Made by a program: the position numbers and the translations under genes
NCBI RefSeq assembly: GCF_014207235.1
Contig: NZ_JACHDA010000001.1
Span: 62,001 to 126,000, forward strand
Reading direction: 5' to 3'
Length of the DNA: 64,000 bases
Source: Sphingopyxis sp. JAI128
GTDB taxonomy: Bacteria > Pseudomonadota > Alphaproteobacteria > Sphingomonadales > Sphingomonadaceae
Shown here: positions 1,534 through 64,000 of the stretch, piece after piece
How the letters are laid out: every line of letters starts with the position of its first letter
Position numbering within the stretch: position 1 is the first letter of the stretch
Notes under the pieces: generated by a model
Seen by the model: the letters and a program-made list of their open reading frames with translations, nothing else
Databases searched by the model: none
Told to the model about the DNA's origin: nothing

Positions 1534-2319
1534 TTACACCACCAAGCGGTCCACCAGCGCCTCGCGCTTTTCGGGGGTGAAGTTCAGCACCGCTTCGGCA
1601 TAGCCTGGAATGTCACCATGGTCGCGGCGCACGGTGGCGAGCGCGGCGTCAAGATAGGCAGGGTTCACCGACATCAGCGCGCGGATCGCATCGTCGTGGA
1701 TTTCGGCGCCGTAACGCGAGCGGATATGCGCCGCGCCCTGCGCGATCCGCTCCTCGATCTTGCCCGCGGTGTTGGTCAGCAGATAGTCGTGCATCAGGTC
1801 GTCCTCATGCACGCCGAGCAGCCGGTGGACGATCGCGACGGCAAAGCCGGTGCGGTCCTTGCCCGCGACGCAATGGACGAGGCTGGGCGCGTCATATTCG
1901 GCGAGCGCAGCGAGATAGAGCCGCAGCGTTGCGACGAGCGCAGGGCGATAGGGCATGCCCGCATAGGTATCGATCATCCGGTCGCGCGCCGTCGCGACGT
2001 CGATCGTCCCGCCCGCTGCCTGAAGATGCGGCGCGAGGCCGGCGGTTACCCCGCCGGCGAAGAGGACGCGCGCCGAGAAATTCTCGGACCGCCGGCACGG
2101 GTGCAACTCGCGCTCGTCGTCGCCGCGCAGGTCGATCACCGTTTCCAGCCCCAGCGCGTCGAGCGCGGTGAGATCCTCGTCGGTTGCCGCTTCATGATGC
2201 GCCGAGCGCCACAGCGTCCCTTCGCGCAGACGCCCGCCGCCCTCGACGGCATAACCGCCATAGTCGCGGAAATTGTGGATACCGGATAGTGGCAGGACAC
2301 GCTCGGCGAGCATGGTCAT
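1534..2319 (-). CDS. Tyrosine-phosphatase-like protein (IphP/Y_phosphatase3 family)
   Basis: 261-residue cytosolic protein with the cysteine-phosphatase P-loop H-C-V-A-G-K-D-R-T-G, giving nucleophile Cys150 and Arg156. The N-terminus has the N-F-R-D-Y-G-G-Y segment typical of bacterial Y_phosphatase3/IphP proteins, and an I-D-L-R motif follows at about 62-65. These enzymes hydrolyse phosphotyrosine, phosphoinositides or other phospho-esters. The start codon overlaps the stop of the upstream enoyl-CoA hydratase-like gene by 4 bases (ATGA), so the two are translationally coupled and co-transcribed leftward. Such a phosphatase is a recurrent passenger in acyl-CoA catabolic operons, but its role there is not established. 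Confidence 0.85.
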   Translation of the reverse strand: MTMLAERVLPLSGIHNFRDYGGYAVEGGGRLREGTLWRSAHHEAATDEDLTALDALGLETVIDLRGDDERELHPCRRSENFSARVLFAGGVTAGLAPHLQAAGGTIDVATARDRMIDTYAGMPYRPALVATLRLYLAALAEYDAPSLVHCVAGKDRTGFAVAIVHRLLGVHEDDLMHDYLLTNTAGKIEERIAQGAAHIRSRYGAEIHDDAIRALMSVNPAYLDAALATVRRDHGDIPGYAEAVLNFTPEKREALVDRLVV

Positions 2320-3125
2320 TCTCCTGTAAAAATAGGGGCGCGCTTTTCGACGAAGGCATTGATCGCCTCGCGGTTATCCGCGGTTTCGTGGACGATCGCC
2401 TGATAGGCTGCGCTCAGTTCCAAAATATCGCTCATCCGGCTGTGCTGCGCCTCGCGCAGCAAACGCTTCGTCAGGCGCAGCGCCCGGGGCGGGTTGCAGA
2501 CGATCCGCTCGGCAATCGCGATCGCACGGTCGAGCAGCTCCGCATCGGGCACGACGTCCGTAACCAGACCATATTCCTTTGCCTGAGCCGCGTCAAAGCG
2601 GTCGCCCGTGAGGAACAATTCGGCGGCGCGGGGGTAGCCGAGTATCTTCTGCAGCAGCCAGGCGCCGCCGTCGCCGGGGACGATCCCGACCTTGATGAAG
2701 CTGCACGCGAATTTCGCGCTCTCGGCGGCGATGCGGATGTCGCATGTGCAGGCAAGGTCGGCGCCGAGCCCGATCGCATGGCCGTTGACCGCGGCGATCA
2801 TCGGCACTTCGCAGTCCATCAGCGCGCGGATCACCGCCTGCACGCCCTTGCGATAATTGGCGCGGGTGGAATCGGGCTGGTCGAGCACGCCGATGCCGGT
2901 GCGGTCCTGCATGCCTTTGAGGTTGCCGCCGGCGCTGAAGGCCTTGCCGCTGCCGGTCAGGATGATCGCGCTGACGTCGCGGTCGTCGCCAAGGGTACGC
3001 AGCGTGTCGATGATATCCTGACAATCCTCGTGCGTGCCGATCGCATTCATGCTTTCGGGCTTGATCATCGTCAGAATCGCGATCTTGCCCCGCCGCTCAA
3101 CACTCAAAAACTCGCCCATCTTCAA
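2316..3125 (-). CDS. Enoyl-CoA hydratase/isomerase-family protein
   Basis: 269-residue crotonase-fold protein. The CoA/oxyanion segments are visible: A-F-S-A-G-G-N near residues 62-68 and A-I-G-L-G-A-D-L-A near 116-124, followed by V-G-I-V-P-G-D-G-G. Aligned by eye with classical hydratases, the first catalytic glutamate position is Asp (in G-A-D-L) and the second (in the F-G-Q-P-E-I region) is Phe, while an aspartate follows in P-G-D-G-G. That pattern is seen in non-hydratase members such as PaaG-type isomerases, so isomerase or ring-opening activity is as likely as hydration. It is divergent from the acyl-CoA dehydrogenase starting at 3171 and co-directional with the downstream phosphatase. 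Confidence 0.85.
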   Translation of the reverse strand: MKMGEFLSVERRGKIAILTMIKPESMNAIGTHEDCQDIIDTLRTLGDDRDVSAIILTGSGKAFSAGGNLKGMQDRTGIGVLDQPDSTRANYRKGVQAVIRALMDCEVPMIAAVNGHAIGLGADLACTCDIRIAAESAKFACSFIKVGIVPGDGGAWLLQKILGYPRAAELFLTGDRFDAAQAKEYGLVTDVVPDAELLDRAIAIAERIVCNPPRALRLTKRLLREAQHSRMSDILELSAAYQAIVHETADNREAINAFVEKRAPIFTGE

Positions 3126-3170
3126 TTATCCTTTGCTGCCTAACCAAAGCTATTGCATGGCTGGTACGAC

Positions 3171-4310
3171 ATGCAAAGCTTCGCGCTCTATCCCTTTGCT
3201 CCGCCCGGCGATGTCGCGGCACTGCGCGCCGATTTACGGGCGTGGCTGGCTGAGCATCAGCCACACGACGACGTCGTCAAACGCGCCAATTGCTGGGCGA
3301 GTTTCGACCCCGATTTCAGTCGCGCCCTCGGTGCCGCGGGCTATGTCGGCATGACGCTCCCTGCAATTTATGGCGGCGGCGATCGTCACCCGCTCGAACG
3401 CTATGTCGTGATCGAGGAATTACTCGCGGCGGGCGCCCCCGTCGGTGCACACTGGATCGCCGATCGCCAGACCGGGCCGCTGATCCTGCGCTATGGCAGC
3501 GAGGAACAGCGGGAGCGCTATTTGCCCGGGATTGCCAAGGGCGAGCTATATGCCTGCATCGGGCTGTCCGAGCCGGGAGCAGGGTCCGACCTCGCCGCGG
3601 TGCGGACGTCGGCGCGCGAGACCGCCGAAGGATGGCGCATCAACGGCCAGAAGATATGGACCACCGGCGCGCATTTTTCGCACATCATGCTCGCGCTCGT
3701 CAGGACGGAGGGAGGCAGCGAGCGGAATGCGGGGCTCAGCCAGCTGCTGATCGACCTCGACACGCCGGGCATCACGATCCGCCCGATCATCGACATGGCG
3801 GGCAACCATGATTTCAACGAGGTCTTTTTCGACGACGCGCTCGTCCCGCACGGTGCGCTCGTCGGAACACGCGGGCAGGGGTGGAAGCAGGTCACCGCCG
3901 AACTCGGTCTCGAACGCTCTGGCCCCGAACGCTATCTGTCGAGCCACGCGCTGCTCATCGCATTGATCGATGCAGCGGGGGCCGATCCCGAGCCCGCCAT
4001 TGCCGGTCTGATCGGCAAGCTCACCGCGGAAATGTGGACGCTGCGCCAGCTCTCCATGTCGACCGCAGCGAAGCTCGCGGCAGGCGAAGATCCGATGGTC
4101 GAGGCGTCGGTTGTCAAGGAACTGGGCAATGCGTTCGAACAGGATATGCCGCGCCGCGTACGGGCGATCGTCGACTGCGCGTGGGACGACGACGCGGACC
4201 TCGCAAGGCTGCTTCGCGCACTCCTCATCGCCTCGCCGAGTTTCTCGCTACGTGGCGGAACGCGCGAAGTGATCCGCGGGATCATCGCGCGCGGATTGGG
4301 ACTCAGATGA
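3171..4310 (+). CDS. Acyl-CoA dehydrogenase, large subunit of a probable pair
   Basis: 379-residue flavoprotein of the acyl-CoA dehydrogenase family. The N-terminal helical domain is followed by the FAD/substrate signature I-G-L-S-E-P-G-A-G-S-D near residues 126-136 and W-x-I-N-G-Q-K-I-W-T-T-G-A near 154-166. The C-terminus carries G-G-T-R-E-V-I-R-G-I-I-A-R-G-L-G, the variant seen in FadE-type enzymes of cyclic or branched acid catabolism. ATG at 3171 is chosen over an in-frame TTG at 3153. The stop overlaps the start of the next, much shorter dehydrogenase gene (ATGA), suggesting stoichiometric translation of a heteromeric enzyme. The 45-bp gap to the divergent hydratase gene must hold both promoters. 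Confidence 0.88.
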   Translation: MQSFALYPFAPPGDVAALRADLRAWLAEHQPHDDVVKRANCWASFDPDFSRALGAAGYVGMTLPAIYGGGDRHPLERYVVIEELLAAGAPVGAHWIADRQTGPLILRYGSEEQRERYLPGIAKGELYACIGLSEPGAGSDLAAVRTSARETAEGWRINGQKIWTTGAHFSHIMLALVRTEGGSERNAGLSQLLIDLDTPGITIRPIIDMAGNHDFNEVFFDDALVPHGALVGTRGQGWKQVTAELGLERSGPERYLSSHALLIALIDAAGADPEPAIAGLIGKLTAEMWTLRQLSMSTAAKLAAGEDPMVEASVVKELGNAFEQDMPRRVRAIVDCAWDDDADLARLLRALLIASPSFSLRGGTREVIRGIIARGLGLR

Positions 4311-5024: not shown

Positions 5025-6155
5025 TCAGCGAAGCGCGCCGCCGTTGCGCAGCGCGGCAATGCCCGCTGCATCATAACCAAGGTCCGTCAGCACGGCATCG
5101 CCGTCGGCGCCCACCGCAGGCGCCGCGCGCGGCGTGTCGTTGACCGTCGCCGAATAGCGCGGCGCCGGGGCCGGCTGGATCGCGCCGCCGACTGTCAGGA
5201 AGGTTTCGCGCTCGACATTGTGTGGGTGCTGCGGCGCTTCGGTCAGCGACAGGATCGGCGCGAAGCAAACATCGGTCATTTCCATGATCGTGCACCATTC
5301 GTCGCGCGTCTTCGTCTTGAACAGGACGGTGAGCTTGTCCTTGAGCGCGCCCCATTTCGACGGGTCCATCTGCGCATCGAAATCGGGGTCGTCGGTCAAC
5401 CCGGTCTTTTGGCGCAGCAGCGCATAGAATTGCGGTTCGATCGACCCGATCGAGATGAACTTGCCGTCGGCACATTCATAACTGTCATAGAAATGCGCCG
5501 CGCCATCCAGCATGTTGACGCCGGCCTCGTCCTTGATCCTGCCTGCGGCAAGGAAGCCCCAGGTCATGCCCGCCAGCAAAGCCGAGCCGTCGGTCATCGC
5601 GCAGTCGATCACCTGCCCCTCCCCGGTACGCGCGGCGTGAACGAGCGCGCTCGACATGCCGAAGGCGAGCATCATCCCGCCGCCGCCGAAGTCGCCGACA
5701 TAATTGACCGGCGGAACGGGCTTTTCGCCCGCGCGGCCGATGCCGTGGAGAACGCCCGACAGCGAGATATAGTTGATGTCGTGGCCGGCGGCCTGCGCAT
5801 AGGGGCCGAACTGTCCCCAGCCGGTCATGCGCCCGTAAACAAGCTTCGGGTTGTCAGCGAGCAGCACATCGGGGCCGAGGCCTAGCCGCTCCATTACGCC
5901 CGGACGATAGCCCTCGATGATCCCGTCGGCACTCTTGCAAAGCTCGCGCGCGATGCGGACGGCGTCGGGGTTCTTCATATCGAGCGCTATCGAGGTGCGG
6001 TTGCGGCTCAGCGGATCGCGTGGGTCCATGAAGCCGCCGGGGCGATCGATGCGGATCACCTCGGCACCATGGTCGGCGAGCATCATGCCGCAGAAGGGGC
6101 CGGGACCGATGCCGGCGAACTCGATGATCCTGATGCCCTTCAGCGGCCCGGCCAT
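5025..6155 (-). CDS. CaiB/BaiF-family CoA-transferase (or AMACR-type racemase)
   Basis: 376-residue class III CoA-transferase-fold protein. The N-terminus (G-P-L-K-G-I-R-I-I-E-F-A-G-I-G-P-G-P-F) and the Y-V-G-D-F-G-G-G-G segment are diagnostic. Asp155 corresponds to the catalytic aspartate that forms the aspartyl-CoA anhydride. The early G-P-F-C-G-M-x-L-A-D-H-G-A-E-V-I-R-I-D segment closely follows alpha-methylacyl-CoA racemase. Racemases and transferases share this fold; racemisation of a 2-methyl-branched acyl-CoA is plausible given five nearby acyl-CoA dehydrogenase genes. The start at 6155 is chosen over 6245 because it fits the family N-terminus and lies 16 bases from the upstream thiolase stop. 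It is the last gene of the leftward catabolic operon. Confidence 0.85.
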   Translation of the reverse strand: MAGPLKGIRIIEFAGIGPGPFCGMMLADHGAEVIRIDRPGGFMDPRDPLSRNRTSIALDMKNPDAVRIARELCKSADGIIEGYRPGVMERLGLGPDVLLADNPKLVYGRMTGWGQFGPYAQAAGHDINYISLSGVLHGIGRAGEKPVPPVNYVGDFGGGGMMLAFGMSSALVHAARTGEGQVIDCAMTDGSALLAGMTWGFLAAGRIKDEAGVNMLDGAAHFYDSYECADGKFISIGSIEPQFYALLRQKTGLTDDPDFDAQMDPSKWGALKDKLTVLFKTKTRDEWCTIMEMTDVCFAPILSLTEAPQHPHNVERETFLTVGGAIQPAPAPRYSATVNDTPRAAPAVGADGDAVLTDLGYDAAGIAALRNGGALR

Positions 6156-6171
6156 GATGCTCTCCTGTTCC

Positions 6172-7422
6172 TCAGATACGTTCGATGATGATCGCGGGCG
6201 CCATGCCGCCCGCAGCGCACATGGTGACGAGGCCGTAGCGGCCACCCGAGCGTTCGAGTTCGTCGAGCGCGGTGCCGATCAGGATCGATCCGGTGGCGCC
6301 GATCGGATGGCCGAGCGCCATCGCGCCGCCGTTGATGTTCACTTTCTCGCGGGGCAAGTCGAGGTCGCGGATGAACTTTTCGGCAACGACCGCGAAAGCC
6401 TCGTTGATTTCCCAGACGTCGATGTCTTCCTTCTTGAGTCCCGCCTTTTCGAGCACCTTCTTGGCCGCCGGAACCGGCGCGTTCAGCATCAGCGTCGGAT
6501 CGTCGCCGATGTTCGCATATGCGACCACGCGCGCGCGGGGCTTGAGGCCATGCTTGTCGGCATAGTCCTTCGAAGTCAGCAGCAGCGCCGCGGCGCCGTC
6601 GACGACGCCCGACGAATTGCCGGCATGGTGGAAATGCTGAATTTCGAGATCGGGGTAGCGACGGTTGATCTGCTTGCGGAAGGTGAAGCCGCCGCCCATG
6701 TCGAAATCGGCGAGGCCCGCGAAGCTCGGCTTCAGCGCCGCGAGCCCTTCGGCGGTGGTTTCGGGGCGCGGAAATTCCTCACGGTCGAGCGCGACGCCGC
6801 CGTCGGGGTTGTGCACGGGCACGACCGATTTGTCGAAGCGGCCTTCTTTGATCGCGCGGTCGGCGCGCTGCTGGCTGACCAGCGCGAGCGCGTCGAGATC
6901 TTCGCGGCTGATGCCCTCGATCGTCGCGATTGCGTCGCCGCAAATGCCCTGATGCGATTGCGGGTGGAGTTCGTCGAGCGCTTCGTGACCCGAGCCCATC
7001 AGGCGCGGCGGCAGGCCGGCATTCGCCTGTTCGGCGGCATGCGCGCTGGTGTAGCTCATCATTTCGGTGCCGCCCGCGATGACGCAATCTTCCATGCCGC
7101 TCATCACGCTGGCCGCGGCGAAGTTTACCGAGCTGATGCCGCCGCCGCAGAAGCGGTCGAGCGTCGTGCCGCTGGCCTTGGTGTCATAACCCGCCGACAG
7201 CGCCGCCATGCGGCCGAGGTCGCCGCCCTGCTTGCCATTCTGGCTCGATGTCGACCAGACGATGTCGTCGACGGTCGCGGTGTCAAGATTGTTGCGGTCT
7301 CGGATCGCGGCAAGGACCGTCGCGGCGAGGTGCTGGGGGTGGAGGTGCGACAACGCGCCCTTGCCTGGCTTGCCGATCCCGCGGGGAGTGCGAACGGCGT
7401 CGATGATATAGGCCTCGGCCAT
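6172..7422 (-). CDS. Thiolase-family acetyl-CoA acyltransferase
   Basis: 416-residue thiolase. Catalytic Cys92 lies in D-R-F-C-G-G-G-I-S-S, His372 in A-L-G-H-P-I-G-A-T-G and Cys402 in T-M-C-A-A-G-G, so the full thiolytic triad is present. It cleaves 3-ketoacyl-CoA with free CoA to release acetyl- or propionyl-CoA. The C-G-G-G variant after the nucleophile, in place of the common C-x-S-G, and the clustered dehydrogenases, hydratase and SDR point to a specialised beta-oxidation thiolase (FadA5/FadA6-like) rather than the housekeeping acetyl-CoA acetyltransferase; this is inference. It lies between the SDR (66 bp upstream) and the CoA-transferase (16 bp downstream) in one leftward operon. Confidence 0.88.
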   Translation of the reverse strand: MAEAYIIDAVRTPRGIGKPGKGALSHLHPQHLAATVLAAIRDRNNLDTATVDDIVWSTSSQNGKQGGDLGRMAALSAGYDTKASGTTLDRFCGGGISSVNFAAASVMSGMEDCVIAGGTEMMSYTSAHAAEQANAGLPPRLMGSGHEALDELHPQSHQGICGDAIATIEGISREDLDALALVSQQRADRAIKEGRFDKSVVPVHNPDGGVALDREEFPRPETTAEGLAALKPSFAGLADFDMGGGFTFRKQINRRYPDLEIQHFHHAGNSSGVVDGAAALLLTSKDYADKHGLKPRARVVAYANIGDDPTLMLNAPVPAAKKVLEKAGLKKEDIDVWEINEAFAVVAEKFIRDLDLPREKVNINGGAMALGHPIGATGSILIGTALDELERSGGRYGLVTMCAAGGMAPAIIIERI

Positions 7423-7488: not shown

Positions 7489-8271
7489 TCAGCGGGGGGC
7501 CATGCGGATCGCGCCGTCGAGGCGGACGGCCTGGCCGTTGAAATAGGTGTTGCGGATCATCTCCATCGCGAGGCTCGCATATTCCTCGGCCTTGCCGAGC
7601 CGCTTGGGGAAGGGCACCGATGCCTCGAGGCTCTCCTTCACCTTCGGGTTCATATTGTTGAGCAGCGGTGTGCCGAATACGCCGGGCATGATCGAATTGA
7701 CGCGGATGCCAAGGTCCATCAGGTCGCGTGCCATCGGCAGGACAAGGCCGTTCACCCCGGCCTTGGCCGAACCATAAATGACTTGCCCAATCTGCCCGTC
7801 CTGCGCCGCGACGGACGCGGTCAGCACGATTGCGCCGCGCTCGCCGTCTTCCATCTCGGGAAGCGTCGCCATGCCTTCGGCGGCGATCGACGCGACGCGG
7901 TAGCTCGCGGTCAAAATGCCTTCGACGCCGAAGGCATAGTCGGCGGTGGGTGTACGGCGATAACTGCCGCTTTCCTTGTCATAGGCGAGCGTCTTGCCGC
8001 GGCGCGAGGTCATCGCGCAATGGACGCACACGCGCTCCTGCCCATGCACGGCGCGCGCTTTCGCATAACCGTCGAGGACCGATTGTTCGTCGGTAATGTC
8101 GACATGCACGAATAGCCCGCCGATCGACGCCGCGACCTCTTCGCCAAGTGCGTCGTTGATATCGAAAATGGCGACCTTCACGCCCGATGCCGCGAGGGCC
8201 TCCGCTGTCGCGCGACCCAGGCCCGAGGCGCCTCCGGTGACAACGGCGGCGATGGTGGAATCGAAATTCAT
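7489..8271 (-). CDS. SDR-family 3-hydroxyacyl-CoA dehydrogenase-like oxidoreductase
   Basis: 260-residue classical short-chain dehydrogenase. The nucleotide-binding motif T-G-G-A-S-G-L-G-R is at residues 12-20. An acidic residue ends strand 2 (F-D-I-N-D near 36-40), indicating NAD preference. The catalytic set is Ser153, Tyr166 and Lys170 (Y-G-S-A-K). The usual N-A-G motif after strand 4 is replaced by V-H-C-A-M-T near 83-88, which is unusual. The overall sequence resembles HSD10/type 2 3-hydroxyacyl-CoA dehydrogenases, fitting the third step of a beta-oxidation cycle between the dehydrogenases upstream and the thiolase downstream. It is separated by 11 bases from the upstream dehydrogenase gene. 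Confidence 0.85.
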   Translation of the reverse strand: MNFDSTIAAVVTGGASGLGRATAEALAASGVKVAIFDINDALGEEVAASIGGLFVHVDITDEQSVLDGYAKARAVHGQERVCVHCAMTSRRGKTLAYDKESGSYRRTPTADYAFGVEGILTASYRVASIAAEGMATLPEMEDGERGAIVLTASVAAQDGQIGQVIYGSAKAGVNGLVLPMARDLMDLGIRVNSIMPGVFGTPLLNNMNPKVKESLEASVPFPKRLGKAEEYASLAMEMIRNTYFNGQAVRLDGAIRMAPR

Positions 8272-8282
8272 GGGGGGGCTCC

Positions 8283-9488
8283 TCAGGCGGGAATCTGGTT
8301 GAAGGGGACGCCCTTGTCAGGGCGGTGGTCCTGCGGCAGGCCGAGAATGCGTTCGGCGATCGTGTTGAGCAACGTCTCGTCCGACCCGCCCGCGATGCGA
8401 CCCGTCGGCGCGTTGATCCAGCTCGACGCCCAGTCGTCCTTGGGCGAGGTACGTTCGTCGAACGCGAAGCCATCGGTGCCCTGCAGATCGAGGGCAAGTT
8501 CCGACAGCTTCTGCCGCGAGCGCACCGCGACAAGCTTGTTGAGCGAGCCTTCGGGGCCGGGGGTCATGCCCGCCTGCATCATCAACCGCGCGCGCATGTT
8601 GATCGAATCGAGCCCGGCGCGCATCGCGTGGTTGCGCGCGATCTGCTGCCGGATACGGCCATCCTCGATCGCCGGGCGACCGTTCAGTTGGACCTCTTTG
8701 GCAAGCTCGACGAACAGGTCGAGGTGCGGCCCGAAGCCCGCGCTGTCGGTCGCGACATAACGCTCGATCATCAGCGTCGCGAGCGCGACCGCGAAGCCGC
8801 CGCCAACCGGCGACATGCGATGATCGTCGCTGATTTTCACATCGTCGAAGAAGACCTCGTTGACGTGGCTGTCGCCGCCCGCGAGCTTGATCGGGCGCAC
8901 CGTGACGCCGGGCGCCTTCATATCGACCCAGAAGTAGGTGAGGCCCTTGTGCTTCGCGACAGTGGGGTCGGTGCGCACGACGATGACGCCATAGTCGCTA
9001 TATTGCGCCCAGCTCGTCCAGACCTTCTGTCCGTTGATCTTCCAACCGTTGCCGTCGGTTTCGGCACGGGTACGCAGGCCGGCAAGGTCGGTACCGGCCG
9101 AGGGTTCCGAAAAGAGCTGGCACCAGATTTCCTCGCCCTGCAGCGCCTTCAGCACGCGTTCCTTCACGAACTCGCGGTCGCCGCCGAACTGCATCAGCAC
9201 GGGAACGGGCATGCCGAGCGAGATGCCGAAATAGACGTTGGGGAAGCCGTGCTTCATCTCCTCGCCTTCGAACGTGATCTTTTCGATATGGCCGAGCCCT
9301 TGGCCGGCAAGATCGGTCGGCCAGTTGATTCCGGCATATCCGGCGTCGAACTTCGCCTTCTGATAGCGCCGGCCGAGCGCGAGATCCTCCTCGACGCTGA
9401 GCCCCTTTCGCGCCGCCTTTCCGAAGAACGGCACCATCGATTCGCACCAGGCCGCGGCCTTTGCGCGATAGCTTTCGAGGTCGGTCAT
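8283..9488 (-). CDS. Acyl-CoA dehydrogenase, catalytic subunit of second pair
   Basis: 401-residue acyl-CoA dehydrogenase. Motifs in order: W-P-T-D-L-A-G-Q-G near residues 56-64, Q-L-F-S-E-P-S-A-G-T-D-L-A near 123-135, W-K-I-N-G-Q-K-V-W-T-S-W-A near 150-162 and the C-terminal A-G-G-S-D-E-T-L-L-N-T-I-A-E-R-I-L-G-L-P. The start at 9488 (M-T-D-L-E-S-Y) rather than 9602 gives the family length and a 4-base overlap (ATGA) with the upstream dehydrogenase gene, so the two are translationally coupled. The layout of two adjacent, dissimilar dehydrogenases matches heterotetrameric FadE pairs known from steroid catabolism. The true substrate is unknown. Confidence 0.88.
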   Translation of the reverse strand: MTDLESYRAKAAAWCESMVPFFGKAARKGLSVEEDLALGRRYQKAKFDAGYAGINWPTDLAGQGLGHIEKITFEGEEMKHGFPNVYFGISLGMPVPVLMQFGGDREFVKERVLKALQGEEIWCQLFSEPSAGTDLAGLRTRAETDGNGWKINGQKVWTSWAQYSDYGVIVVRTDPTVAKHKGLTYFWVDMKAPGVTVRPIKLAGGDSHVNEVFFDDVKISDDHRMSPVGGGFAVALATLMIERYVATDSAGFGPHLDLFVELAKEVQLNGRPAIEDGRIRQQIARNHAMRAGLDSINMRARLMMQAGMTPGPEGSLNKLVAVRSRQKLSELALDLQGTDGFAFDERTSPKDDWASSWINAPTGRIAGGSDETLLNTIAERILGLPQDHRPDKGVPFNQIPA

Positions 9489-10579
9489 GTGGTCTCTCCT
9501 GCGAGGCGATCGACGAGCATGTCTTCCCAGAAGAAGCTGCTCCCCTGTTCGAGCGCGAGGGTGCGCGATCGGCGCATGTGGAGGTGGAGGCCGATTTCCC
9601 ACGTCACGCCGATGCCGCCGTGGATCTGGATGCAGTCGCGCGCAGCTGTATCATACGCCTCGGTCGCCGACAGGCGCGCAGCAGCCGCGGCCGTGACGAA
9701 ATCATCCTCTCCTTCGCGCGCCGCGGCATGGATCGCATTGGCGCGCGCGAGTTCGACGAGTCCGTAAAGCTCAGCGATGCGATGCTTGATCGACTGGAAG
9801 GCGCCGATCGGCTGACCGAAGGCTTTGCGCGTCAGCGCATAGTCGCGCGCGATCTCCATCAAGGCTTCGGCGCCGCCGGTCTGTTCGTGCGCAGTGACAA
9901 CGGCTTGCAGCGCAAGGATATGGAGCGCCGCCGCGCGCGCCGCTTCGCCTGTGACGAGCGGTTCCGCCGAAGCGCCGGCAAAGAGGAGGTCGGCGATACA
10001 GCGGCTGTTGTCGAAGCTGTCGATGGCCTTCCGTTCAATGCCGTCGAGATCGACGATCACTAGCGCGCGCGCTCCGCCGTCTTGCGCGAAAAGAATTGCC
10101 ACATCGGCGAACAATCCGCCGGATACACTCGGAGCCGTTCCTTCGACCTGACCGGCCTTCCATGTCGCCGCCGGTGCAGCGGGCAGGGCATCCGGTCCCG
10201 ATGCAAAGGCAATGGCGCCGATCGTCTCGCCGCTCGCGAGACCGGGAAGCCAGCGCGCCTTCTGCTCGTCGCTGCCGTAAAGTTCGATCGCCTTGGCAGC
10301 GCCAAAGCTGGACGTCAGAAACGGCGCGCCGCTGAGCGTGCGCCCGGCCTGATGAGCGATCAGCCCGAGCTCGACGATGCCGAGGTCGAGGCCGCCATAG
10401 GTTTCGGGAAGCGCGAGCGCGGTCCAGCCTTGCTCCTTTGCCGTCATCCAGAACCCGTCATGATATTGGCCGCTCGTCTGGAGCAGCGGAAGCAGGTCGT
10501 CCTTGCTGACCCGCGCTTCGAGCGCGCGCCGCGATTCGGTCGCGATCGCCAGTTGCCCTTCGTCGTACAAGATCGACAT
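9485..10579 (-). CDS. Acyl-CoA dehydrogenase-family partner subunit
   Basis: 364-residue acyl-CoA dehydrogenase-like protein. The N-terminal domain is normal (L-P-E-T-Y-G-G-L-D-L-G near 57-67), but the FAD/substrate loop that should read S-E-P-x-x-G-S-D is degenerate (A-I-A-F-A-S-G-P-D-A near 143-152). The middle domain is shortened. The C-terminal signature R-K-A-F-G-Q-P-I-G-A-F-Q-S-I-K-H and I-Q-I-H-G-G-I-G-V-T are intact. A degenerate subunit next to an intact one is typical of alpha2beta2 FadE-type complexes. This is the first gene of the leftward operon 10579 to 5025. A 21-bp palindromic operator candidate lies at 10620-10640, 41 bases upstream of the start. Confidence 0.87.
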   Translation of the reverse strand: MSILYDEGQLAIATESRRALEARVSKDDLLPLLQTSGQYHDGFWMTAKEQGWTALALPETYGGLDLGIVELGLIAHQAGRTLSGAPFLTSSFGAAKAIELYGSDEQKARWLPGLASGETIGAIAFASGPDALPAAPAATWKAGQVEGTAPSVSGGLFADVAILFAQDGGARALVIVDLDGIERKAIDSFDNSRCIADLLFAGASAEPLVTGEAARAAALHILALQAVVTAHEQTGGAEALMEIARDYALTRKAFGQPIGAFQSIKHRIAELYGLVELARANAIHAAAREGEDDFVTAAAAARLSATEAYDTAARDCIQIHGGIGVTWEIGLHLHMRRSRTLALEQGSSFFWEDMLVDRLAGETT

Positions 10580-10683: not shown

Positions 10684-11880
10684 TCAGGCGTGCCCGGCTT
10701 TCCACTCGCGCTTGATCTTTTTCGCGAGGCTCCATTTGTGAACCTCGGTCGGGCCGTCGTAGATGCGGAAGGCGCGAACCTCGCGGAACACCTGTTCGAC
10801 GATCGTCCGGTCGGTGACGCCGGTGCCGCCCATGACCTGGACGCAGCGGTCGGCGATGCGCATCAGCGCCTCGGATACCGCGACCTTCGCCATCGAGCTT
10901 TCGACGGTGCCGAGCGATCCGGTGTCGAGCACGCCCGCGCACCAGTCGACCATCAACTCGGCCTGTTTGAGGTCGATCATATTTTCGGCGAGCATAAAGC
11001 CGACGCCCTCATGGTCGATCAGCGGCTTGCCGAATGCCTCGCGGCGGTTGGCATAGTCGGTTGCGATCTCTTGCGCGCGGATACACGCGCCCAGCCAGCG
11101 CATGCAGTGCGACAGACGGGCAGGGGAGAGGCGCACCTGCGCGTAGCGGAACCCTTCGCCCGCTTCGCCGAGCATCTGGTCGGCAGGCACGCGCAGATTG
11201 TCGATCGTCAGCGTCGCGTGGCCGCCGGGCATCGAGCTGTCGATCGTGTTCGGAACATGATCGATCCGAATCGCTGGGTCGGGCAGGTCGATCAGGAACA
11301 TGCAAGCGCCTTCGTTCGCCTTTGCTATCACGATCCCGACGCGCGCACCCTGCGCGCCGGTGATGAAGGTCTTGCGGCCGTTGATCACCCAGTGGTTGCC
11401 GTCGGGATGGCAGACAGTCTTCATCATCGACGGGTCGGACCCTGCGCCGCCTTCGTCGGCGGGTTCGGTCATGAAGAAGGCCGAGCGAACGCGCCCCTCG
11501 ACCATCGGTTTCAGGAACCGCTCCTTGAGTTCGGGGCTGCCTTCCTTGCCGAGCAGGTACATATTGCCCTCGTCGGGCGCCATCGTGTTGCATGCGAGCG
11601 GACCGAGCGGCGAGAGACCGCTCTTGATGAGCACCATAGCAGTCTCGCGCTGGTTGAGGTGGCTGCCGTCGCTTAGGATATGCGGTGTGAGTACGTCCGC
11701 GGCGCGCGCACGTTCGCGCATTTCCATGACAAGCTCGTCGGTCGGCGCGCCATGGTGGTCGCGGCGCCGATCCGCTTCATATGGGATGACGGTTTCGCGG
11801 ACGAAGGTTTCGACCTTTTCCGCGATGGCGCGCGCCCGATCCGATATGCCTTCGTGCGCCACCATTTCGATTCCCTTCAC
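10684..11880 (-). CDS. Acyl-CoA dehydrogenase (ACAD10/11-like)
   Basis: 398-residue full-length acyl-CoA dehydrogenase. It contains F-F-M-T-E-P-A-D-E-G-G-A-G-S-D near residues 144-158, W-V-I-N-G-R-K-T-F-I-T-G-A near 176-188, R-R-E-A-F-G-K-P-L near 286-294 and the C-terminal R-I-Y-D-G-P-T-E-V-H-K-W-S-L-A-K-K-I. The insertion in the S-E-P loop and the D-G-P-T-E-V-H ending match the ACAD10/11 and FadE-like group that handles longer or branched acyl-CoA. A downstream start (Met6) is possible. It is transcribed leftward from a 106-bp region shared with the divergent NMO-type gene, in which the second operator candidate lies. It ends 104 bp before the next dehydrogenase start. Confidence 0.88.
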   Translation of the reverse strand: MKGIEMVAHEGISDRARAIAEKVETFVRETVIPYEADRRRDHHGAPTDELVMEMRERARAADVLTPHILSDGSHLNQRETAMVLIKSGLSPLGPLACNTMAPDEGNMYLLGKEGSPELKERFLKPMVEGRVRSAFFMTEPADEGGAGSDPSMMKTVCHPDGNHWVINGRKTFITGAQGARVGIVIAKANEGACMFLIDLPDPAIRIDHVPNTIDSSMPGGHATLTIDNLRVPADQMLGEAGEGFRYAQVRLSPARLSHCMRWLGACIRAQEIATDYANRREAFGKPLIDHEGVGFMLAENMIDLKQAELMVDWCAGVLDTGSLGTVESSMAKVAVSEALMRIADRCVQVMGGTGVTDRTIVEQVFREVRAFRIYDGPTEVHKWSLAKKIKREWKAGHA

Positions 11881-11986: not shown

Positions 11987-12967
11987 ATGGCTTTCAGGAC
12001 ACGCATCACCGAAATGCTGGGTATCGAGCACCCGATCGTCCAGGGCGGGATGCAGAGCGTCGGCTATGCCGAACTCGCGAGCGCCGTATCGAACGCCGGC
12101 GGCCTTGGTATCCTCACCGCGCTGACCCAGCCGACGCCCGAAGCGCTCCGCGACGAGATCGAGCGTTGCCGCGCGATGACCGACAAGCCGTTCGGGGTGA
12201 ATATGACCGTCTTTCCGACGATCAACGCGCCCGATTACAAGGCCTATGCGCAGGCGATCATCGACGGCGGCGTCAAGATTGTCGAAACCGCGGGGACGCA
12301 GGCGGTGCGCGAGATTTGGGAGATGCTGAAACCCCACGGCGTTACCATCCTCCACAAATGCACTGCGGTCCGCCATGCGCTGTCGGCCGAGCGCGCGGGC
12401 TGCGACATCATTTCCATCGACGGCTTCGAATGTGCTGGCCATCCGGGCGAGGACGATATCCCCGGCCTGATCCTGATCCCTGCCGCCGCGGACAAGGTGA
12501 AGATTCCGATGCTGGCATCGGGCGGCTTCGGCGACGGGCGCGGCCTCGTCGCGGCCCTGTCGCTCGGCGCCGAGGGGATCAACATGGGCACGCGCTTTTG
12601 CGCCACCAAGGAAGCGCCCATCCACGACAATGTGAAGCAGGCCTATATCGACAATGACGAGCGGGGCAGCTTCTTGATCTTCCGCAGCCTCAAGAACACC
12701 GCGCGCGTCGGCAAGAGCGCGGTGAGCGAAGAGGTCGTGCGCCGCCTGGCGCAGCCCGACGCGACCTTCGCCGACGTCGCCGAACTGGTAAACGGCAAGG
12801 CGGGGCGCGAACTGCTCGAGACCGGCGACCTCAGCAAGGGCGTGTTCTGGGCGGGCATGGTGCAGGGGCTGATCCACGATATCCCGACCTGCAAGGAACT
12901 GGTCGACCGGATCATCGCCGACGCCGATGCGATCGTCGGTGAGCGGCTGGTATCGATGCGCGCCTGA
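11987..12967 (+). CDS. NMO/2-nitropropane dioxygenase-family flavoprotein
   Basis: 326-residue FMN-dependent TIM-barrel protein of the nitronate monooxygenase family. It shows I-V-Q-G-G-M near residues 17-22, the F-E-C-A-G-H-P-G-E-D motif with His152, and phosphate-binding glycines in L-A-S-G-G-F-G-D-G-R and G-I-N-M-G-T-R-F. The family includes true nitronate monooxygenases, FabK-like enoyl reductases and the IpdC-type enoyl-CoA oxidoreductase of steroid ring degradation. The neighbouring acyl-CoA dehydrogenases make a CoA-thioester role more likely than nitronate detoxification, but this is inference. The start at 11987 has a GGAGGGATCGAG-type ribosome binding site just upstream. It is divergent from the 11880 dehydrogenase. 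Confidence 0.85.
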   Translation: MAFRTRITEMLGIEHPIVQGGMQSVGYAELASAVSNAGGLGILTALTQPTPEALRDEIERCRAMTDKPFGVNMTVFPTINAPDYKAYAQAIIDGGVKIVETAGTQAVREIWEMLKPHGVTILHKCTAVRHALSAERAGCDIISIDGFECAGHPGEDDIPGLILIPAAADKVKIPMLASGGFGDGRGLVAALSLGAEGINMGTRFCATKEAPIHDNVKQAYIDNDERGSFLIFRSLKNTARVGKSAVSEEVVRRLAQPDATFADVAELVNGKAGRELLETGDLSKGVFWAGMVQGLIHDIPTCKELVDRIIADADAIVGERLVSMRA

Positions 12968-12989
12968 CGCCCTCAGCGCTGGCGTGCCG

Positions 12990-13045
12990 CGGCGGCATTC
13001 GATATGATCCGATTCATCGCAATCTGGTCATATCGAATGCCGCCG
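12990..13045. other. Long perfect inverted repeat (18-bp arms)
   Basis: Arms at 12990-13007 and 13028-13045 are perfectly complementary (CGGCGGCATTCGATATGA and its reverse complement), separated by 20 bases. Inside the spacer CCGATT and AATCTGG can pair further, leaving a loop of about 6 bases. The element starts 23 bases after the NMO-type stop and ends 35 bases before the next start. There is no T-run on either side, so it is not a textbook intrinsic terminator. It could be an operator, a transcript-stabilising or attenuating hairpin, or a small mobile repeat. Confidence 0.8.
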
Positions 13046-13079: not shown

Positions 13080-14162
13080 TTGAGCCTCATCGAATATAAG
13101 GGTTTCGGCGGCGTCGTGCTGGCCGCGGACATGCTGGGCGACGAAAATGATCCCGCCGTGCTGCTGGTCCCCGAAATCGGGCAGGACCGCGCCGCCTGGC
13201 GCGATGTTGCCGAAGCCCTGGTCCTGTCGGGCCGCCGCGTCGTGAATCTCGACCTTCGGGATGAGGGCGAACTTGCGCCGCATGTCGAGGATCTGCGCGC
13301 CGTGCTCGCCCAGATGGGATCGCGCCCGGTCGTCGTTGCGGCGGGGCGGGGAAGCTGGATCGCAACGCGCGCATTGGGGCTCGAAGGCGGTGACCTTGCC
13401 GCGGGCCTTGTGCTTGTCGATATGCCGATCGATGAGAATGCGATCGAAAGCGGCGTCGCGGCGCGCTTGGCGCTGCCGACCCTCGTCGTGCGCGGCGGCT
13501 TCGAGCCGGCGCAATGCAGCGCGGTGAGCGATGCGTTCAATACTGCGCTGCCCTTCGGCGAAAGCGCCGACATTAACGAATGCGATCTCGAACTCGCCGC
13601 CGACCGCAAGGAAGCGCTGCTCGGGCAACTCCTCGAATTCCTCGAACGCCGCCAGCCGCGCGAGGCGATGGAATTCAAGGCTGGGTCCGACCCGCGCACC
13701 CTGCGCGATGCGATGGGATGTTTCGCCACGGGCATCACGATCGTCACGGCGCTCGACGCGGCTGGAATGCCCGTCGGGCTGACCGCCAACAGCTTTACCT
13801 CCGTGTCGCTCGATCCGCCGCTCTTGCTTGTGTGTATCGCCAACACGGCCGGAACGGCGCCTGCGTTGCGCGATGCCGCGCATTTCGGCGTCAATGTGCT
13901 CCAGATCGGCCAGCAGCCGGTATCGAACCGCTTTGCCGCCAAAGGCGAGGACCGTTTTGCCAACCAGCCATGGGCGCCCGGCGAGACCGGTGTGCCCTTG
14001 CTGGGAGGCTCGCTCGTTTCGTTCGAATGCCAGCACGAATCGCTTCACGAAGCGGGCGACCATTTCATCCTCGTCGGCCGCGTCGTTCGCGCGCAGTTCG
14101 AACCGCACCGTGATCCCCTGCTCTATTTTCGGGGAAAATACCGCCGATTGCACTTCGCGTAG
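13080..14162 (+). CDS. Fusion: degenerate alpha/beta-hydrolase plus flavin reductase
   Basis: 360-residue two-domain protein. Residues 1 to about 190 look like an alpha/beta-hydrolase (A-V-L-L-V-P-E-I-G-Q-D-R-A-A-W start), but the nucleophile elbow reads A-G-R-G-S-W (88-93). By alignment Gly91 replaces the serine, and no convincing catalytic histidine follows. Residues about 203-360 are a flavin-reductase-like FMN-binding domain: L-R-D-A-M-G-C-F-A-T-G-I-T-I-V-T, then G-L-T-A-N-S-F-T-S-V-S-L-D-P-P-L. Such reductases supply reduced flavin to two-component monooxygenases. The start is a TTG at 13080 preceded by AAGGGGG; an ATG at 13076 is out of frame. It follows the NMO-type gene and the inverted repeat at 12990-13045. 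Confidence 0.82.
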   Translation: MSLIEYKGFGGVVLAADMLGDENDPAVLLVPEIGQDRAAWRDVAEALVLSGRRVVNLDLRDEGELAPHVEDLRAVLAQMGSRPVVVAAGRGSWIATRALGLEGGDLAAGLVLVDMPIDENAIESGVAARLALPTLVVRGGFEPAQCSAVSDAFNTALPFGESADINECDLELAADRKEALLGQLLEFLERRQPREAMEFKAGSDPRTLRDAMGCFATGITIVTALDAAGMPVGLTANSFTSVSLDPPLLLVCIANTAGTAPALRDAAHFGVNVLQIGQQPVSNRFAAKGEDRFANQPWAPGETGVPLLGGSLVSFECQHESLHEAGDHFILVGRVVRAQFEPHRDPLLYFRGKYRRLHFA

Positions 14163-61540: not shown

Positions 61541-64000
61541 TGACCGACGACGCTGCCTTCGATGCCGAACAGGCCGCGCCGGCGCCAAGCCGATCGTGGC
61601 CGCGCACGACCTTGCGCTGGATCGGGTTGGCGCTGCTCGGGTTGATATTGCTTTTCGCCCTGTTTCTCATCGGGCTCAATAGCGACGCCGGACGCCGTTT
61701 CGTCGTCACCCAGATCGAGAAATATGAATTCGAAAACGGGATGAAGATCGGGATCGGCCGGCTCGATGGATCGCTCTATGGCGAGATGGTCATCCGGAAT
61801 TTTACGCTGTCCGACCCAAAGGGCGTCTTACTCGCCTCGCCCGAAGTGCGGGTCGACTGGCGGCCGATTCGCTATCTTGCGAACCATGTGGATATCCGAT
61901 CGGCCACCGCCGCGACGATGACGATGCGTAAATTGCCCGAATTCAAGCCGGTTCCCGACACCGGCGAGCCCTTGCTTCCCGATCTCGATATCGACGTCGG
62001 GCTGCTGCGGATCGACCGCTTTGTCTTCGAACCCGCCGTTGCGGGCGAACGCCAGGTGGCGACGCTCAACGGCAAGGTCGCGATCGCCGACCGCCGGGCG
62101 CAAGTGACCGCAAACGCCGCGACGCTCAGCGGCGGCGGCGGACAGGGCGACAGGCTGAAATTGCTGCTCGACGCGGTGCCCGATCAGAACCGGCTGGCCG
62201 TGACGCTCGATGTTTCGGCACCCAAGGACGGTGTGCTCGCCGCGATGGGCGGCTTCGAAGAAACGCTGACCGCGAAGCTCGACGGGCGCGGCGACTGGAA
62301 GACCTGGAACGGCAATCTGACCGCGAACCTCGGCGCCGCGCCGCTCGCGCGCGTTGCGTTGACGGCGCGCCACGGCACCTTCGCGGCAAAGGGAAGCGCC
62401 CAGGCGTCGCGACTGTTCGCCGAAGGACCGGCAGCGGAGATATTGGGCGGCGAAACGGCGATCGACCTGACCGCGCGGCTCGACAAGCGCAAGGCGGCGG
62501 TCGACGGACGCCTGTCGTCGGACACCGCCGAGCTTGGTATAAGCGGCGGCATCGACCTTGGCACCAATCGCTACGAGAGCCTGCAACTAGCGGTCAATAT
62601 ATTGCGGTCGGGCGCGATTGCGCCGGCGGTGAGGGCGAACGGCCTTCGCGCGACCGCTACGCTCGACGGAGAGTTCGCGTTGCCGACGGTCGATTATCGG
62701 GCGAATGCGAACAGCCTCGCGGTCAACGATATCGTCGTCGAGGGACTGAGCCTTGCCGGCAAGGCGCGCGTTGATGCCGACCAGATCGCCATTCCGGTCG
62801 CGGGCCGCGCCGCGCGAATTCGCGGCCTTGACGCCGTTGCTGGCGGCACGCTCGTTCAGGTCCGGCTCGACGGTGACCTGGCCTATAGCGACGGGCGCAT
62901 CCTCAGCGATAATCTGCGCCTTCGTTCGCCGCGTATCGACGCCAAGGCGATTCTTGTCGCCGACCTCAACAAGGGTTTCTACACCGGGGCGATCGACGGA
63001 CGGATCAACGATTATCGCATCGAAAGCGTCGGCATTTTCGATATCGACACCGATGCCGATCTCAAGACCGCGCCGCGCGGCGGGTTCGAAATCGCCGGCC
63101 GAGTCCGGGCACGATCGACACGGTTGTTCAATTCGGGAGTGCGCGACTTCCTCGGCGGCAACGCCACGGCATCGAGTGACGTGCGCTATGGCACCGACGG
63201 TCTCGTCCGTTTCGCCAACCTCCGCCTCTCCGCCCCGCGCCTGCGGATTACCGGCGGGCAGGGGAGCTATACGCCGAACGGGCAGATCCGGCTGACGGCG
63301 CGCGCCCACTCGACCGACTATGGTCCGGTCGGTGTCCAGGTGGCCGGCACAATCAGCGATCCCAACGCGGTCGTGACCGCCGAACGCCCGGGGCTCGGCA
63401 TCGGCCTTGCCAAGCTTGTGGCGCGCATCAACGGCGCGCCGGACGGCTATCGCCTCGCCGCGACGGGCGAGACGGACTATGGTCCCCTGTCGGCCGATGT
63501 CCTTTTGCTCACGGCGAAAGGTCCGCTGACGATCGATGTCGAACGCGGCGACCTGTCGGGCATCGGCTTCAAGGGGCGATTGGTGCAAAGCGATGTGGGG
63601 CCGTTCGTCGGGCGGCTCGACGCATCGGGGCAGGGACTGGGCGGTCTCGTCCGCCTGAGCGCGGCGGGTCAATATCAGGCCGCCGCGATCAACGTCCGCG
63701 CAAACAATGTCGTGCTGCCCGGCGCGGCGCAGCTTTCGGTCGGTTCGGCGATCGTCGATGCCGACGTCACGCTGTACGACAATCCGCACGTCGTTGCCGA
63801 CATTCAGATTGCGCAGACGCGCATCCGCGAATTCGATATCGCCGTCGGCAGGGTCAAGATCGACTATCGCGACGGCAGCGGCCGCGCGCAGGCGCTGGTC
63901 GAAGGGACCAGTGGTGTGCCGTTCCGCGTTGCCGCCAATGCCGACCTGAAACCCGACTTGTGGCGCGCATCGGTGCAGGGCCGGGCAACGGGCATTAATT
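61540..64000 (+). CDS. tamB: TamB-like translocation/assembly protein, N-terminal part
   Basis: 820 codons are in the window and the frame is open at the right edge; family members are usually 1200-1500 residues. One N-terminal transmembrane helix (I-G-L-A-L-L-G-L-I-L-L-F-A-L-F-L-I-G near residues 29-46) anchors it in the inner membrane. The rest is a long repetitive beta-helical (AsmA-like) periplasmic region with short strands and many D/G turns, which forms a lipid-conducting groove between membranes. Start overlaps the tamA stop by one base (TGATG), so the two are coupled. Confidence 0.92.
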   Translation, partial: MTDDAAFDAEQAAPAPSRSWPRTTLRWIGLALLGLILLFALFLIGLNSDAGRRFVVTQIEKYEFENGMKIGIGRLDGSLYGEMVIRNFTLSDPKGVLLASPEVRVDWRPIRYLANHVDIRSATAATMTMRKLPEFKPVPDTGEPLLPDLDIDVGLLRIDRFVFEPAVAGERQVATLNGKVAIADRRAQVTANAATLSGGGGQGDRLKLLLDAVPDQNRLAVTLDVSAPKDGVLAAMGGFEETLTAKLDGRGDWKTWNGNLTANLGAAPLARVALTARHGTFAAKGSAQASRLFAEGPAAEILGGETAIDLTARLDKRKAAVDGRLSSDTAELGISGGIDLGTNRYESLQLAVNILRSGAIAPAVRANGLRATATLDGEFALPTVDYRANANSLAVNDIVVEGLSLAGKARVDADQIAIPVAGRAARIRGLDAVAGGTLVQVRLDGDLAYSDGRILSDNLRLRSPRIDAKAILVADLNKGFYTGAIDGRINDYRIESVGIFDIDTDADLKTAPRGGFEIAGRVRARSTRLFNSGVRDFLGGNATASSDVRYGTDGLVRFANLRLSAPRLRITGGQGSYTPNGQIRLTARAHSTDYGPVGVQVAGTISDPNAVVTAERPGLGIGLAKLVARINGAPDGYRLAATGETDYGPLSADVLLLTAKGPLTIDVERGDLSGIGFKGRLVQSDVGPFVGRLDASGQGLGGLVRLSAAGQYQAAAINVRANNVVLPGAAQLSVGSAIVDADVTLYDNPHVVADIQIAQTRIREFDIAVGRVKIDYRDGSGRAQALVEGTSGVPFRVAANADLKPDLWRASVQGRATGIN

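Follow-up and report, generated by a model that had tools for sequence, protein, structure and literature searches.

Proteins that have the alpha/beta-hydrolase fold and lack its catalytic triad include BotH, NDRG and GID1. BotH has an activity despite the missing triad and GID1, a dead hydrolase, serves as a ligand sensor in plants; we know of no flavin reductase fusion in any of the three. Flavin reductases of the PF01613 type that carry an extra domain have also been described. In AbHpaC, the reductase C1 of p-hydroxyphenylacetate 3-hydroxylase from Acinetobacter baumannii, the extra domain is C-terminal and of the MarR type, and it is reported to be autoinhibitory, with the inhibition relieved by substrate (PMC10816480). 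In the StyA2B type, e.g. VpStyA2B of Variovorax, a flavin reductase is likewise joined to a second domain, which is reported to be an epoxidase and has no hydrolase fold (PMC6017014). HsaB, the reductase of the steroid A-ring monooxygenase, is a further relative.

The gene considered here lies in a 64,000-nucleotide stretch of the genome of Sphingopyxis sp. JAI128 (NZ_JACHDA010000001.1, positions 62,001 to 126,000), referred to below as the window, and joins a hydrolase fold that has lost Ser and His of its triad, comparable to BotH, NDRG and GID1, to a flavin reductase. Its extra domain is N-terminal, in contrast to that of AbHpaC. Neither a hydrolase-flavin reductase fusion nor hydrolase-derived control of a flavin reductase was found described in the titles and abstract starts of the open-licence PMC literature, and the fusion is not described in the portions available of PMC12911418 and PMC9836352.

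The two halves of the fusion protein

The fusion gene (13080..14162, + strand) is a single open reading frame with a TTG start and encodes 360 residues, of which 1-194 (13080..13661, + strand) have the alpha/beta-hydrolase fold and are followed by an intact flavin reductase domain. The best of five AlphaFold2 models had a mean pLDDT of 77.8 (60.4 to 71.8 in the other four); with a pTM of 0.63 and pLDDT below 50 at residues 279-287 and 343-360, the placement of the two domains relative to one another is uncertain. The hydrolase fold that a preliminary description had proposed for the first ~190 residues is borne out. Eight strands inside residues 2-164 and an elbow are predicted, as expected of the superfamily, and residues 1-194 superpose on the solved hydrolase 7d78 with a Z of 21.9 and an rmsd of 2.3 over 183 residues. 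The five best hydrolase superpositions ranged over Z 21.7-21.9 and rmsd 2.2-2.6, and the VIA matches listed were hydrolases. The Pfam profile Abhydrolase_6 (PF12697, residues 28-142) scored 15.7 bits, below its cut-off of 26.3, and BotH (6t6h) was a weak profile match (E 5.6e-7).

When aligned with free-standing relatives that have a GxSxGG elbow, the protein has Gly89 (codon 13344..13346, + strand) in the Ser column, Leu170 (codon 13587..13589, + strand) in the His column and Pro31-Glu32 in place of the oxyanion HG. The elbow, A87-A88-G89-R90-G91-S92-W93, is a strand-turn-helix in the model (strand 84-88, helix 90-100) with residue 89 at its tip. With no Ser, Asp or Cys at the elbow, Leu170 after strand 8, PE for HG and a lid segment of 18 residues against 94-97 in the free-standing relatives, the protein falls outside the catalytic serine hydrolases. 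Ser92 was considered as the nucleophile and rejected, as it lies three residues past the nucleophile column and is replaced by Gly in 16 of 20 relatives of the window type. The acid position on strand 7 is Pro in the window protein and varies among the free-standing relatives, so that Asp114 (codon 13419..13421, + strand), at the end of strand 6 and kept in 92/97 fusions and 13/13 free-standing relatives, may be the true acid of this hydrolase family, and loss is therefore claimed for Ser and His only. The preliminary description was right about the glycine at the nucleophile position and the missing histidine, and the correctly placed Ser92 that it named as grounds for abandoning a dead hydrolase was not found; its empty triad holds for Ser and His, but an acid candidate is retained.

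The second half had been described as an intact flavin reductase domain, which agrees with a PF01613 (Flavin_Reduct) score of 151.1 bits against a gathering cut-off of 27 for residues 212-357 (13713..14150, + strand; GDH at 326-328, YFRGKYR at 349-355). By sequence this half is intact and strongly conserved, and the fusion protein is probably an NADH-dependent flavin reducer. Its top NCBIfam match was the HsaB equivalog NF045630 (E 5.2e-46), at 156.8 bits against a cut-off of 230. NF045919, for the reductase C1 of p-hydroxyphenylacetate hydroxylase, reached 147.8 bits against a cut-off of 340, and the C-terminal MarR domain is absent, the fusion protein ending three residues past its reductase domain. 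Profile and Foldseek matches gave 3rh7 and the reductase C1 as the closest solved relatives, AbHpaC (5zc2 by profile, 5zyr by structure) being second best. The Foldseek matches listed for the model of the fusion were reductases, including the halogenase reductases BorF and ThdF. Production of a separate reductase from an internal start at Met197 was rejected, as the position is unconserved and is Thr or Pro in many relatives. Two members of the genus (L173, L174) have another reductase of ~340 residues, whose C-terminal extension looks similar, on visual inspection, to the MarR-type extension of AbHpaC.

Distribution, stepwise change and selection

An uninterrupted fusion was found in 34 of the 36 genus genomes searched, the exceptions being G003 and G034, and was also absent from a further genus genome (G316) in a separate search. 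Among the best 80 of 327 related stretches the fusion came mostly from Sphingopyxis, and also from Novosphingobium, Tsuneonella, Sphingorhabdus and Hyphomonas. When the whole class was searched, in a loose first pass that scored no more than four candidates in the listed genomes, there was a match at E <=1e-60 in 4/385 genomes, that of JAI128 included, and the fusion therefore seems rare beyond this group. A single PF01613 match was found in 46 of 80 genus genomes, some of them incomplete, and the lengths of the open frames suggest that this match is the fusion in most, not all, of the 46.

Two forms of the fusion occur. The short form, to which the window protein belongs, has 360-367 residues, and the long form has ~408; the latter carries HG, in most cases a GHGGSEWP motif, and usually Thr in the nucleophile column. 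The TTG start is common to the short forms, being present in 20/20 and 33/33 relatives of two overlapping sets (loci L001-L020, L061-L092 and L131), and ten other fusions (nine long forms and L021) start with ATG. The start codon of one fusion (L120) overlaps the stop of a GntR gene.

Thirteen free-standing relatives (L048-L060), found with a profile of the N-terminal domain of the fusion at E 4e-32 to 2.3e-25, retain Ser in 13/13, His in 12/13 and HG in 13/13, and one of them (L058, at L169:6014-6895) matches Abhydrolase_1 with 79.1 bits. In 97 fusion rows, some of which share a genome, the nucleophile column holds T 42 times, G 27, R 16, S 7, M 3 and A 2; the His position holds His in five rows, and Ser and His occur together in only two (L136 and L041). 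In 34 short forms the nucleophile residue is G in 17, R in 16 and A in one, so the position is free to vary inside the short form. The segment from Asp114 to Pro133, which holds the lid, has 94-97 residues in the free-standing relatives. Two fusions come close with 91-92, most long fusions have 45-57, and nine further fusions from several lineages have 28-43; the short forms are down to 16-18 (18 in the window protein), and L124 and L126 to 15-16.

A tree of 75 rows was built with the trait columns excluded, after removal of L059 (His loop out of register), L132 (a false N-terminal extension) and rows at least 90% identical to a row that was kept. It splits the free-standing relatives from the fusions with a support of 100/100. 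The minimum number of changes on this tree is 15 for the nucleophile state, four for Ser/non-Ser and four for His/non-His, counts by which loss and regain are indistinguishable. Several end branches are long (L172, L124, L171 and others), which makes single placements unsure, and because the outgroup has no reductase half the tree does not prove one fusion event. These comparisons relate the front half to serine hydrolases that occur free-standing in the same bacterial family; it has lost Ser, His and the oxyanion motif, and the lid segment has been reduced in steps to a small remainder.

The decayed half is still under selection. Median pairwise dN/dS (Nei-Gojobori) was 0.170 for the N-terminal domain and 0.053 for the reductase in 53 short forms; the corresponding values were 0.171 and 0.070 for 23 long Sphingopyxis forms and 0.229 and 0.118 for nine Novosphingobium-type forms. 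Pairs with dS outside 0.2-1.6 were dropped, the source genome sets overlap, and the short-form set counts some genomes twice. By these medians selection on the N-terminal domain is relaxed two- to threefold relative to the reductase, yet the domain is far from neutral. Eleven residues, F9, R52, R82, V84, W93, A95, L99, L106, G109, L184 and R194, are specific to the fusions (at least 90% in short forms, at least 85% in other fusions, and different from the commonest residue of the free-standing relatives), and some of them would fit a new domain interface.

Genomic setting and the search for a partner

The fusion gene is the last of a catabolic island and is preceded by a gene of the Pfam NMO family (11987..12967, + strand). 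The island further comprises acyl-CoA dehydrogenases at 10684..11880 (- strand), at 9485..10579 (- strand; top NCBIfam match IpdE2, below its cut-off), at 8283..9602 (- strand; the true start is probably downstream of the GTG of this frame) and at 3153..4310 (+ strand), with a short-chain dehydrogenase (7489..8271, - strand), a thiolase (6172..7422, - strand), a family III CoA-transferase (5025..6245, - strand) and an enoyl-CoA hydratase (2316..3125, - strand). The function implied by the name NMO has to be corrected, since the closest solved relative of this neighbour, with an end-to-end alignment at E 8e-123, is PA1024, so that it is likely to be an enzyme of that kind; PA1024 is reported as an NADH:quinone oxidoreductase (PMC10033279). 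A further, distant model is IpdC, described as a FabK-like flavoenzyme that acts on CoA thioesters of steroid rings (PMC5380842). In a locus of another genus (L169:5040-6895) a PA1024-like gene, 68% identical, is followed directly by the free-standing hydrolase L058, which keeps Ser and His, and this arrangement may represent the state before fusion.

Neighbours were counted by tblastn because the gene caller was crude and at times picked antisense frames. For the short form and its sister L124, an NMO gene lies upstream of the fusion in 31 of the 32 loci whose left flank was long enough, the exception being L088; L070 and L072, where the contig ends in the flank, were left out. Among the other 46 loci, mostly long forms, three have NMO, 23 have the fusion flanked by a GntR regulator on one side and a thiolase on the other, and 20 have neither, some of them lacking flank. 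A CoA-transferase was also present in the fetched stretch of 21 of the 23 GntR/FCD-thiolase loci, and Pfam confirmed an intervening DUF35 gene in one of them (L136). The preliminary description had asked whether the fusion always stands beside NMO or FadE genes, a link that holds for the short form and L124, L088 excepted, and is seen in three of the remaining loci. The slot beside NMO, which in the window contains the short form, is taken by long forms of a different tree branch in L119, L121 and L129, the last with an extra gene between, and in L133 as judged from the right flank. This points to gene replacement or differential loss. Around seven deep-branching fusions (L156-L162) tblastn found relatives of acyl-CoA dehydrogenases near L158, L161 and L162 and of a CoA-transferase near L160.

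Upstream of the fusion gene a putative promoter element, CTGGCG-N18-TATGAT (12979..13008, + strand), recurs in 31/38 distinct short-form upstream regions at ~70 nt upstream. It overlaps an inverted repeat of 25 nt (12990..13045; arms 92% complementary and 6 nt apart), the two together covering 12979-13045. This region may be the gene's own promoter, the terminator of the gene upstream or an operator.

No oxygenase partner was found among 14 window proteins and 10 slot-B proteins scanned, the NMO-family neighbour being PA1024-like. In the whole genome of JAI128 (99.99% complete) the only PF01613 match is the fusion, and there are two PF00296 (luciferase-type) matches, 22 PF08028 (group-D oxygenase) matches and seven PF04820 (tryptophan-halogenase-like) matches, three of the last in a row on one contig (C2). 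Two of the PF08028 matches are by position the window's own acyl-CoA dehydrogenases, and an HsaA-like partner was not seen in the three best of the 22, which by eye are acyl-CoA dehydrogenases; in this the locus differs from that of HsaB.

Across the bacterial family, 174/199 genomes have PF01613 and 138/199 have PF04820 (E <=0.001). Nine of the 20 listed genomes, from 25 without PF01613, have a strong PF04820 match (G084, G113, G131, G147, G149, G162, G163, G168 and G210) and another (G116) has a weaker one; G215 and G259, with strong PF04820 and absent from the PF01613 matches listed, are probably two of the five unlisted genomes. G015 carries the fusion but lacks a PF04820 match, and in G028 the sole PF04820 match that accompanies the fusion has an E of 8.4e-4. 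Halogenases are accordingly not supported as a general partner, because PF04820 occurs without PF01613 in the nine listed genomes and the fusion without PF04820 in G015. In favour of such a partnership, one genome (G136:C1:1897922-1899919) has a PF01613 match adjoining a PF04820 match, both in the same orientation, and these two form a natural candidate pair.

What the hydrolase half may do

The reading that we favour, at a probability of about 0.55, is that of an NADH:flavin reductase of the HpaC/HsaB type whose N-terminal pseudo-hydrolase module has a non-catalytic scaffold or docking function. As a member of its family, the reductase half would reduce free flavin with NADH. The front half would provide a non-catalytic scaffold or docking surface that either stabilises the reductase or brings it next to a partner. 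The reduced flavin would pass to an oxygenase coded elsewhere, or NADH would be oxidised for the surrounding acyl-CoA degradation island. A median dN/dS of 0.17 in the hydrolase half indicates that it is still under selection and makes some non-catalytic role likely, for which scaffolding and regulation are examples. The absence of an oxygenase partner from the scanned neighbours counts against the scaffold. The suggestion of the preliminary description, a dead hydrolase with a binding or docking function, survives as far as the non-catalytic role is concerned; with its nucleophile, His and oxyanion motif gone and little of the lid segment left, the window form is unlikely to bind a CoA intermediate in the old pocket.

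The main rival is that the reductase is gated by a ligand, the pocket of the pseudo-hydrolase sensing a pathway intermediate and switching flavin reduction on, and we regard it as a tentative alternative. Dead hydrolases do act as ligand sensors in plants, as in GID1, and most long fusions keep HG and 50-57 residues of the lid segment. AbHpaC, which ranks second among the solved relatives of the reductase half (5zc2, 5zyr), offers the best precedent for an extra domain that controls such a reductase, its MarR domain being reported as autoinhibitory and relieved by substrate (PMC10816480), and it is for this reason that gating ranks first among the rivals. The window form, however, has no oxyanion motif and only a short remnant of the lid segment, so that little of a pocket is left. 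A broader wording, in which the former hydrolase has become a regulatory or docking half that senses an acyl-CoA pathway intermediate or a partner and so gates NADH:flavin reduction, is tentative to the same degree.

Somewhat less probable is that the hydrolase half is a vestige, tolerated since its removal would expose or misfold the reductase. The loss of the active site and of the lid segment in steps in several lineages would be expected of such a domain, as would a dN/dS that exceeds the value for the reductase by a factor of two to three, and the purifying selection on it may reflect a mere need to fold without harming the reductase. The medians of 0.17 to 0.23 and the fusion-specific conserved residues argue the other way.

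It is improbable that the fusion is a supplier of FADH2 to flavin-dependent tryptophan-halogenase-like enzymes. The seven PF04820 matches beside a single PF01613 match in JAI128, and BorF and ThdF among the structural relatives, point in that direction, but the genomes with strong PF04820 and no PF01613, and the missing or marginal PF04820 of G015 and G028, do not. No more can be said for an unorthodox activity of the hydrolase half that needs neither Ser nor His, comparable to that of the triad-less BotH: BotH is among the profile matches, and with Asp114 retained some chemistry at the old site is conceivable, yet the oxyanion motif is missing, little of the lid segment is left, and close relatives differ in their elbow residue. 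The idea that a sequencing or assembly error joined two genes, which the preliminary description had raised against its own proposal, has nothing in its favour and is contradicted by the uninterrupted fusions of the genus and of other genera, so that the fusion is taken as genuine.

For the genus, the fusion gene may be the sole HpaC-type flavin reductase in many genomes. Should gating prove true, it would be a case of hydrolase-derived control of a flavin reductase, with intermediates from intact to nearly lid-less in living bacteria. Many stages between an enzyme and a pseudoenzyme are found inside one family, from intact free-standing hydrolases, through two fusions that keep Ser and His and many with Thr and half a lid, to the short forms with Gly or Arg, and since these natural intermediates are available, what service a dead domain renders to its living partner is directly testable.
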